Below are positions 11,396 through 13,107 of a DNA stretch of 32,235 nucleotides, in pieces. The translations under genes and the position numbers were made by a program. The notes under the pieces were generated by a model, which was not told where the DNA came from, did not search any database, and saw only the letters and a list, made by a program, of their open reading frames with translations. This DNA is from an uncultured Gammaproteobacteria bacterium (GTDB lineage Bacteria; Pseudomonadota; Gammaproteobacteria; Pseudomonadales; Pseudohongiellaceae), in NCBI GenBank assembly GCA_903862645.1, contig CAIOZF010000227.1, positions 1-32,235 on the forward strand, given 5' to 3'. Numbering within the stretch: position 1 is the stretch's first letter; the number at the start of each line of letters is the position of its first letter.

Positions 11396-12016
11396 CTAGT
11401 TGGAGGAACCGTACTCGTCGGCGTAATCGTCCATCGCGGCCTGAATGACCACCTTGGCGTGCTCATAACCGTAGGCAGCGCCGATAGACACCTTGTTCTC
11501 TTGACCGGGGATCAGCTTGTAGGTCAGGAAATAGTGGCGCAATCTTTCGATCAAAGCCTGTGGCAGCTCGCTGATATCATCGATGTCAGCGAACAGAGGG
11601 TCGTTCTGCAGTACGGCAATAATCTTGTCATCCGCTTCACCACCGTCCAGCATGGGCAGCCCGCCGATTACCTTGGCATTCAGAATGATCTCGGTCTTGG
11701 AGATGGGTCGTTCGCTGATGACACAGATATCCAGCGGGTCGCCGTCACCTCGACTTGCACCTGGCATCAGATCACGGCAGCGATTGCCACAGTAGGTGCG
11801 CGGAATGAAGCCATACAGGGTCGGATGCTGGGATGAAGAGCGCTGTGGGCGGTCGACACGCAGGTAACCGGTCGTCTTGTCAACTTCATATTTCACCAGA
11901 TCGAATGGGCATATCTCGATGAATGCATGAACCAGACGCGGTGCGTCAGGACCTACATCGAGTCCATGCCACGGGTGCGGACGCCAGCGGTAAAAGGGGG
12001 GCGGAAACTTTTTCAT
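11396..12016 (-). CDS. ppa: Inorganic pyrophosphatase, family I
   Basis: 206 residues. The cytoplasmic enzyme hydrolyses pyrophosphate to phosphate, pulling nucleic acid and other synthetic reactions forward. The signature [10 protein letters not shown] has metal-binding Asp91, Asp93 and Asp96. Other conserved segments are [16 protein letters not shown] (41-56), [10 protein letters not shown] (68-77), and [18 protein letters not shown]. The N-terminus ([19 protein letters not shown]) is longer and more aromatic than in E. coli Ppa, typical of a subgroup slightly larger than the 176-residue enzyme. The start at 12016 has TGAGA upstream, and an extended -10 promoter lies about 75 bp further. 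Confidence 0.93.
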
Positions 12017-12091
12017 TCGGGTATCTCATTCTGGTCAGTCGTTACCCGGAGTTTGTTATTGTAGTCGGGCGGAATTGGTGAAAAGGCCGGC

Positions 12092-12100
12092 ATTATAGCA
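12092..12100 (-). promoter_or_regulatory. Extended -10 promoter for ppa
   Basis: On the minus strand TGC is followed by a perfect TATAAT (complement of 12092-12097). No good -35 is found 16-18 bp away, which is tolerated by extended -10 promoters. It would give a leader of about 70 nt before the ppa ATG. Confidence 0.58.
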
Positions 12101-12194
12101 GGGAAAGCCTAAACCACACCGCGAGCTCCGTCGATCAAACACCGCTTTGCGAACACATGGCGTGTCTCCGGCTTGATCATTTCCTGAGGAAGCG

Positions 12195-12282
12195 GGCCTG
12201 CCCGCGATGAAATTTTGGGGTCAGAGTAAAAATACAGCCTGTATTTTTACTCTGACCCCAAAATTTTAGCGCGGGCAAGGCC
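12195..12282. repeat. 88-nt nested palindrome (REP-like outer stem, 28-bp perfect inner stem)
   Basis: The inner arms 12210-12237 and 12239-12266 are perfect reverse complements of 28 bp separated by one base (C12238). They contain TTTTGGGGTCAGAG and its complement. Outside them GGCCTGCCCGCG (12195-12206) pairs with CGCGGGCAAGGCC (12270-12282) with one bulged base, leaving a 3x3 internal loop. The outer segment has the core of the REP-like motif seen elsewhere in the window. It starts 16 nt past the stop of the VOC gene (minus strand) and lies upstream of the ppa promoter. No transposase gene is nearby. Confidence 0.9.
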
Positions 12283-12297
12283 CTCTCCCATAACCAA

Positions 12298-13107
12298 TCA
12301 GCGCATATCGGGCGCGCGGTGCACCAGTTCTATGCGCGCACCCTCGGGGCCCTGCACGTAGAAGAAGTTGATGATGCCGTTGGGCAGCGTCATGTCGCGC
12401 GGCTCTGATGTGAACTCCACACCCTTGGCCTGCAGGTCAGCAATAGTCACAGCCGAATCCAGCGCACGCCAGCCGATGTGGTCGATAGAAGCTCCCTGAC
12501 TCGGGAACGTGGAATCGGCCTGAGAGATCAGCAGCCAGACATTGCCGGGGTAGAGGATGCCATCAAGGCGGCCGCGCATATTGGTGCGGATGCCGCCGAA
12601 GGTGGCCTCGTACCAGGCGAAGGTCGCCTGCGGGTCAGCGGAGCGCAAGTGTACGTGGTGGAAACCCAGGTGCTGAGCGTCTTCGATCAGTTCCATGCGG
12701 TTGCCGAACGGGTCGACAATGAAAGCCAGTTTGAACAGGCCCGGTACGTCGCGTACTTCGCTGCTCACAGTCGCGCCAGCTGCACGCACACGCTCAACCA
12801 CTGCGGCAAGATCAGTGAAGGAGAAGCCCAGATGATCCACCACACCACCCGTGCTGGGTGTGGCGGCATCGCCATTGAGGAACATGATGCGGGTCGTTCC
12901 GAACAAGAGTCTATCGGTGCGGCCGTCGATGAATTCTCCGCCGATATTGTCCTTATACCATTGGGCGGCCACTTCCGGCTCGGGTACCGCCATATGGACG
13001 TGGTCGTACATGTAGGTCTTGCTCTGCGCCTGTGCCTGGGCTGAAATCAGTCCCGGCAGACAGAACAGCATGAGGAGTACGAGACCAGTTTTGATTTTGT
13101 TGTGCAT
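12298..13107 (-). CDS. Exported two-domain VOC (glyoxalase/bleomycin-resistance superfamily) protein
   Basis: 269 residues. A signal peptide is clear: basic MHNKIK, hydrophobic TGLVLLMLFCLPGLI, then ISAQAQAQ with likely cleavage near residue 27. Two VOC modules follow. The first starts at YDHVHMAVPEPEVAAQWY (34-51, His38) and ends with NRMELIED. The second starts at HHVHLRSADPQATFAWYEATFGG and ends with ARIELVHR. The His and Glu at these places are the usual metal ligands of the superfamily. The reaction is unknown: glyoxalase, dioxygenase, epimerase or resistance function are all possible. Most VOC proteins are cytoplasmic, so export is notable. AAGGAGAG lies at ideal distance before the ATG. 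The gene appears monocistronic, with the large palindrome just past its stop. Confidence 0.85.
   Translation of the reverse strand: MHNKIKTGLVLLMLFCLPGLISAQAQAQSKTYMYDHVHMAVPEPEVAAQWYKDNIGGEFIDGRTDRLLFGTTRIMFLNGDAATPSTGGVVDHLGFSFTDLAAVVERVRAAGATVSSEVRDVPGLFKLAFIVDPFGNRMELIEDAQHLGFHHVHLRSADPQATFAWYEATFGGIRTNMRGRLDGILYPGNVWLLISQADSTFPSQGASIDHIGWRALDSAVTIADLQAKGVEFTSEPRDMTLPNGIINFFYVQGPEGARIELVHRAPDMR

Follow-up and report, generated by a model that had tools for sequence, protein, structure and literature searches.

TIRtrons are Y1 genes located between inverted repeats, many of them with the motif GGGGWSAS (Di Nocera et al. 2013, PMC3733652). According to the part of that paper drawn on here, some TIRtron TIR families are dispersed as dimers or clusters, and REPs favor places downstream of genes (PMC3733652). 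In the portion of Quentin et al. (2018, PMC6006769) considered here, 20 of 26 TIRYT examples fall into TnpAY1 subclass 2.1, with an HTH domain.

We analyzed an 88-nt palindromic structure in a window of 32,235 nt, a stretch of contig CAIOZF010000227.1 of an uncultured gammaproteobacterium. This structure is probably a non-autonomous TIR dimer of a TIRYT-type Y1 transposase that sits in the spacer of an older REP doublet (REPIN/BIME). The element is of a known kind, the TIRYT/TIRtron class, and not a new system. Like the TIRtrons as excerpted above, it involves a Y1 gene between inverted repeats, with GGGGTCAG fitting GGGGWSAS, and TIRs that are also dispersed as dimers, 18 of them in the genome containing the window (G000, hereafter the source genome). 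Unlike the dimers described there, those found here are joined nearly head to head, with 0 to 2 nt between the 21-nt core arms in 53 of 63 copies. In contrast to subclass 2.1 as presented in the cited portion, the Y1 protein of the source genome has no C-terminal HTH, such as Bac_DnaA_C, detectable at E up to 1, and we therefore file it as TIRYT-like by anatomy, not as subclass 2.1.

As in the BIMEs and REPINs associated with RAYTs, to the extent that these are covered by the parts of PMC2817692 and PMC3116915 used, the outer stems are formed by a pair of GC-rich REPs in inverted orientation, the 3' sides of which point inward; unlike those elements, the arms of the inner palindrome lack the REP hairpin and tetranucleotide (PMC2817692, PMC3116915). 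The nearest published parallel to the composite, by description and not by sequence, is a group of Pseudomonas TIRs in which a degenerate GTAG-1 REP adjoins an unrelated stem-loop, in hundreds of copies (PMC3733652, in part). Given this account by Di Nocera et al., the composite has precedent. REPs are also known, from the parts of two papers considered, as landing sites of mobile DNA (PMC1525189, PMC8450116); the mobile DNA in those cases is a full-length insertion sequence, whereas here it is a gene-less TIR dimer of ~50 bp. The exact core 15-mer GGGGTCAGAGTAAAA was not found in the literature searched, and the matches listed for two 9-mers look unrelated by title. In the same literature, as far as the portions considered extend, we found no earlier description of center inversion or of lodging in REP spacers.

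A palindrome enclosed by two REPs

An inverted-repeat search delimited two 44-nt arms (12194-12237 and 12239-12282) that are 91% complementary, with 1 nt between them, and reading of the sequence showed the inner 28 bp of each arm to be perfect around C12238 (Table 1). With the settings used, this 88-nt structure is the longest among the six inverted pairs listed for the window. Folded as RNA, 12180-12300 reaches -77.7 kcal/mol; 200 shuffled versions average -30.1 (z = -13.2), and none of them does as well. The original prediction had described perfect 28-bp inner arms around a single base, enclosed by a REP-like stem belonging to a different motif and located just past a VOC gene stop. All of this holds: search and reading agree on the arms, the stem is an inverted pair of Pseudomonas-type REPs, and the minus-strand VOC-type ORF has its end at 12298, separated from the outer stem by 15 nt. 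The start of this ORF (12298-13107) resembles a signal peptide by sequence reading, and its scores lie below the cutoffs of the glyoxalase and Fos-type models.

Table 1. Features at and around the palindrome (window coordinates)
Feature	Position	Strand	Remarks
Left outer REP, GGAAGCGGGCCTGCCCGCGA	12188..12207	+	3' side toward inner palindrome; REP consensus scan, 1 mismatch
Left inner arm, 28 bp	12210..12237	+	core TIR GGGGTCAGAGTAAAAATACAG = 12217-12237
Central base C	12238	no strand	between inner arms
Right inner arm	12239..12266	-	exact reverse complement of left arm; core TIR 12239-12259
Right outer REP, GGGAGAGGGCCTTGCCCGCGC on minus strand	12269..12289	-	variant with 3-nt loop
VOC/glyoxalase-type ORF	12298..13107	-	structure lies downstream of its stop
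Inorganic pyrophosphatase gene	11396..12016	-	next gene, same strand as VOC-type ORF; NF001886

Dispersal of the inner motif and its link to a Y1 gene

The core 15-mer has 40 exact matches in the source genome (3.1 Mb, 254 contigs), 20 on each strand, against 0 for a reversed-pattern control; with up to 2 mismatches, the counts are 45 and 2, and none of the 5 extra matches makes a new palindrome. Of these 40 exact matches, 36 pair up into 18 palindromes, two form a pair 797 bp apart, and two are half copies at contig ends (C123 and C158). A single-copy hairpin is therefore rejected: the genome-wide search for the inner motif, which had been named in advance as a check that could refute a mobile element, revealed a dispersed family instead of one copy without relatives.

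The palindromes are built of two 21-nt core arms around a center of 0 to 18 nt, and AAATTT or a variant of it usually borders the arms on the outside. We gathered 63 copies from the draft genomes of four species of the genus (18 from the source genome, 7 from G009, 14 from G011, and 24 from G013), collected through an exact core match on both arms (the L284 copy excepted), a procedure that favors perfect arms. One-base centers are found in 33 of these copies (17 G, 13 C, 2 T, and 1 A) and two-base centers in 18. In an even draw of 276 gammaproteobacterial genomes, GGGGTCAGAGT palindromes occur in 15, the source genome included. The palindrome pattern had 0 matches in viral_contigs, and viral carriage was rejected. 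At seven of the nine places listed for one genome of the draw (G132), the palindromes have a constant length of 39 nt and GGGGTCAGAGT ends, with very different and often poorly matched inner sequences.

The two core matches that lie 797 bp apart in the source genome enclose a minus-strand ORF of 247 amino acids that encodes a Y1 (HUH tyrosine) transposase of the RAYT-like kind, with a match to Y1_Tnp (PF01797, E = 4.8e-13) and a score of 63 bits against NF047646, under the cutoff of 80. Y1_Tnp is the sole domain detected at E up to 1 both in this protein and in a homolog (L121), with no DnaA-like C-terminal HTH found, and the PDB contains no sequence relatives of the source protein at E up to 1. 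The HxH (N-H-x-H) and tyrosine (R-Y-x-E-L-N-P) motifs are invariant across 7 aligned Y1 homologs. The whole element, 810-812 bp with identical 21-nt arms, occupies the same chromosomal place in the source genome, G013, and G009, with GGGGTCAG arms flanking the Y1 gene on both sides in all three; the Y1 proteins of G013 and G009 are 71% and 67% identical to that of the source genome. In G011, no close Y1 homolog was found despite the many palindromes (best identity 32%), perhaps because of an assembly gap.

The association extends beyond the genus. In Psychrosphaera, a Y1 homolog of 264 amino acids is followed directly after the stop by an exact arm, with variant arms at the opposite end; a broken homolog from a Thiotrichaceae record is flanked by arms at both ends. 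All 14 other palindrome-bearing genomes of the 276-genome draw encode a homolog of the source Y1 protein, in 13 of the 14 at 142 bits or more; in a search of relatives based on a different draw, that score is reached in 20 of 57 genomes. Allowing one substitution, the best Y1 locus of each of the 14 genomes, some of them cut by contig ends, has arms on both sides in 6 cases, an arm on a single side in 4, and no arm in 4; for 16 further Y1 loci of the same genomes, the respective numbers are 0, 2, and 14, and for 30 Y1 loci of the relatives, 11, 3, and 16. In a comparison by eye that drew on one or two palindromes from each genome, the Y1 arms resemble the palindromes of the same genome in five of nine genomes (G273, one of two in G248, G202, G244, and G159), do not do so in G211, and have no clear match in G326, G132, and G289. 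The tie between the inner motif and Y1 transposases, raised in the original prediction, is thus substantiated by Y1 genes flanked by the same inverted arms, and similar arms found in several genera connect one TIRYT family with dispersed TIR dimers of its own. We accordingly read the inner palindrome as a pair of TIRs, belonging to a TIRYT-type Y1 transposase, that have probably fused in almost head-to-head fashion, giving a dimer that the Y1 protein might have mobilized in trans, in a MITE-like manner. Mobility of the palindrome, like any RNA role discussed below, is a reading of sequence comparisons.

Two other Y1 genes are present in the source genome. One (L038, on C22) lies between different inverted repeats, 1057-1089 and 1958-1990, with palindromic tips (CGCGGGTCAGACCCGCG), and the other (L039, 892-1887, on C128) encodes a C-terminal DnaA-type HTH (Bac_DnaA_C, PF08299).

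Nesting in the REP doublet

The left outer motif differs by 1 mismatch from GGGAGCGGGCNNGCCCGCGA over 12188-12207 and is one of 77 matches at up to 3 mismatches in the source genome, a count in which some palindromic places appear on both strands (control, 4). Two GC-rich inverted REPs that are repeated in the genome make up the outer stem, as defines a GTAG REP pair or BIME; the inner arm GGGGTCAGAGTAAAAATACAG has, by reading, neither a GC-rich hairpin nor a GT(A/G)G head and is not a REP or REPIN by that definition. The REP heads in the window itself are degenerate, and better-kept REP copies of the source genome start with TGTGGGAGCGGGC, that is, with a GTGG head. REP doublets without the inner palindrome occur at C85:85707-85758, L047, L316, and L317, and the doublet is therefore an independent repeat. 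A RAYT of the outer-REP type was sought in the source genome and not found: the outer-type REP is missing from the loci of all three Y1 genes of this genome, one of which has other inverted repeats.

Across the four species, a REP lies within 80 nt of 27 of the 63 palindrome copies, on both sides in 5, and, with the patterns used, 36 copies have no REP within that distance; the 63 copies are partly orthologous and hence not independent in these counts. REPs are concentrated close to the palindrome, with 33 at distances up to 60 nt, 3 between 60 and 120 nt, and 2 in the range of 120-540 nt, and 28 of 32 nearest REPs turn the same (GCGA) side toward it. A preference of both elements for gene ends could inflate the co-occurrence, yet this alone would not produce the orientation. 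One G013 copy (L248) is situated within a REP stem whose G011 counterpart (L300) is continuous. Together, this case and the prevailing orientation of the REPs support the notion, put forward in the original prediction, of one element inside another. Single-stranded REP and TIR hairpins might be the preferred landing places.

History of the window site and of near-empty sites

A search with the window region yielded matches in all 14 genomes of the genus, the source genome included. In seven other genomes, both sides of the site were recovered, on one contig or, in G013, on two contig ends; for G002, G004, G005, G006, G008, and G010, the listed matches cover the pyrophosphatase side only. The palindrome lies within a REP pair in G011, together with extra partial arms, and in G013, where it is split over the two contig ends. 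G009 has a REP, one arm, and a REP, and G001, G003, G007, and G012 contain neither REP nor palindrome. An empty REP doublet was seen at this place in none of the relatives for which both sides were recovered. With the palindrome in a REP pair in G011 and G013 and one arm in G009, a recent insertion at this site is rejected. The choice offered originally, that such perfect arms are either recent or under selection, was too simple: the recent origin is not borne out, because three other species share the palindrome or a one-arm remnant at the site, and part of the likeness of the arms may be due to a process acting on the DNA itself.

Comparison of flanks resolved 20 groups of linked loci, one of them the Y1 locus, with the group of L013 resting on one flank only. 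For near-empty counterparts, 15 loci were queried and nine were aligned. Two of these are clean near-empty sites, L268 versus L304 and L247 versus L299 (the relative retains a single AAATTT), the third is the REP-stem case of L248 and L300, and the other six alignments contain larger or ragged differences; near-empty sites of this kind do not tell insertion from precise loss as the first event. By eye, the G013 and G011 counterparts of L009 also lack both palindrome and REP.

Similarity of the arms and inversion of the center

In 16 orthologous groups (34 overlapping pairs), core arms differ at 9 of 1,428 sites (0.63%) and flanks at 9.46% of 20,656 sites, a contrast that is biased upward because the copies, L284 excepted, were found through an exact core match on both arms. 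Among 19 comparisons of one-base centers, 11 are exactly inverted, 8 are the same, and 0 differ otherwise; the inversions occur at five of nine loci, also where the flanks are 98% identical. At the window site, the center is C in both the source genome and G011, whereas the two contig ends of G013 have G. Two-base centers behave differently: the 11 comparisons comprise 5 with the same center, 6 with some other difference, and 0 inversions (TA and CG cannot show inversion), and the remaining four center comparisons also differ otherwise.

Pair comparisons of 27-nt arms revealed 10 matched two-sided changes, 31 one-sided changes, and 7 unmatched two-sided changes; the 10 matched changes correspond to about seven separate ones and were scored at ungapped positions, so that some may be one-base length shifts. 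Examples are AAATTTT on both arms at the window site versus AAATTT in G011, and GGGGTCATAG on both arms of L284 in G011 versus L261 in G013. In the core alone, five of the six separate changes between orthologs are one-sided and one, that in L284, is two-sided. In a count over 61 copies without regard to orthology, 1,267 of 1,281 core pairs have the consensus; the others comprise 7 two-sided and paired changes, most of them from the short copy L297, the arms of which overlap in the count, 6 one-sided changes, and 1 unpaired change. These patterns, read from aligned copies, provide some support for arm correction, mostly in the outer bases and in L284, short of a demonstration.

Template switching between inverted repeats is recognized, according to the part of the published source considered, by homogenization of the arms and inversion of the spacer (PMC8604942). 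Hairpin template switching, combined with turnover, is a plausible but unproven cause of the likeness of the arms. Template switching equalizes the two arms but does not explain why the same letters recur at all loci, which is why we infer turnover. Hairpin template switching during replication and copy turnover could jointly keep the arms alike, with new copies coming to old sites and damaged copies being lost mainly by deletion. Partial-arm remnants within 45 nt on at least one side accompany 28 of 64 copies, compared to 7 of 1160 control windows of 45 nt, and fit repeated events at the same places. That these partial arms arose when new copies entered the loops of older ones is unsupported; by eye, the partial arms mostly end near GGGGTCAG.

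A stronger form of this proposal holds that the hairpins are dynamic, with strand switching at the fork copying the arms and inverting the center faster than point mutation, and with extruded REP and TIR hairpins acting as landing sites. We regard this form as tentative and rather unlikely. If it were true, hairpins would grow inside hairpins at gene ends, correction and turnover would account for the perfection in place of youth or selection by the host, and the single base at the center would serve as a natural reporter of the process. The two-base centers and the one-sided changes in the core lower our confidence both in the dynamic hairpins and in the preferred explanation, the TIR dimer lodged in an older REP doublet.

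Gene ends and alternative explanations

By a crude longest-open-frame heuristic, the genes around the palindrome are convergent at 23, tandem at 22, and divergent at 5 of the 50 loci retained from the 63 (the 13 dropped had short flanks or ran into contig ends). Of the 68 gene 3' ends at these 50 loci, 61 lie within 56 nt of the core. This placement and the very stable fold would suit a palindrome kept by the host as a 3' RNA hairpin, either an mRNA stabilizer or a bidirectional terminator, with pairing selection matching the arms. We consider that explanation improbable. The placement is unspecific, given that REPs also favor sites downstream of genes (PMC3733652, in the part used), and pairing selection alone would neither fix the core letters across loci and species nor predict exact inversion of a one-base center. 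The terminator role raised in the original prediction finds no support in a T tail, with 0 T-run intrinsic terminator sites in 11900-12500, and a canonical terminator is rejected. A known RNA family is rejected as well: no Rfam family matches the structure above the gathering score, and miRNA matches at E ~1e-5, far below the thresholds, probably reflect any long hairpin. Some effect on mRNA ends may exist.

Arm identity and center inversion might also be artifacts of short-read assembly or of libraries at palindromes, an account that we deem to have a low probability. It draws on C6, where the contig end is folded back so that the flank mirrors itself and the palindrome probably supplies the second half of the C158 copy, and on the position of 5 of the 18 source-genome palindromes and both half copies at ~200 nt or less from a contig end (C6, C74, C123, C153, C158, C182, and C210). 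However, the other source-genome copies and the listed copies from other genera read through into different flanks on each side, and the string "k141" in the contig names of records matching G013 and G011 suggests an assembly word longer than the palindrome. Improbable too, in our estimate, is the spread of the REP-palindrome-REP block as one composite mobile unit. Consistent with such a unit are the five copies with REPs on both sides and a pair of contigs of the source assembly, C74:1-360 (L306) and C119:1-216 (L305), which differ by a whole hairpin block: the compared flanks (~80 and 80-100 nt) are 100% identical, and C119 lacks ~127 bp that in C74 hold the palindrome and another REP-like stem (GCCAGCCCTGCTGGC), perhaps a strain polymorphism within the assembly. 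A unit spreading together is at odds with the 36 copies that have no REP nearby, the REP doublets that have no palindrome, and the variation of spacer sequences and junctions among copies.

Compared with these alternatives, the TIR dimer in the spacer of an older REP doublet remains the reading we prefer. The dispersed, orthologous, and nearly identical palindromes form a natural data set in which arm changes and center inversions can be counted between species, and they bear on the persistence of short perfect palindromes in bacteria, although such palindromes are expected to be unstable. REP doublets, in turn, come into view as hosts for TIR dimers. On contig C156 of G009 (L315), the flanks of two G013 palindromes that lie 6.3 kb apart are joined over a REP doublet, with the interval missing or moved.
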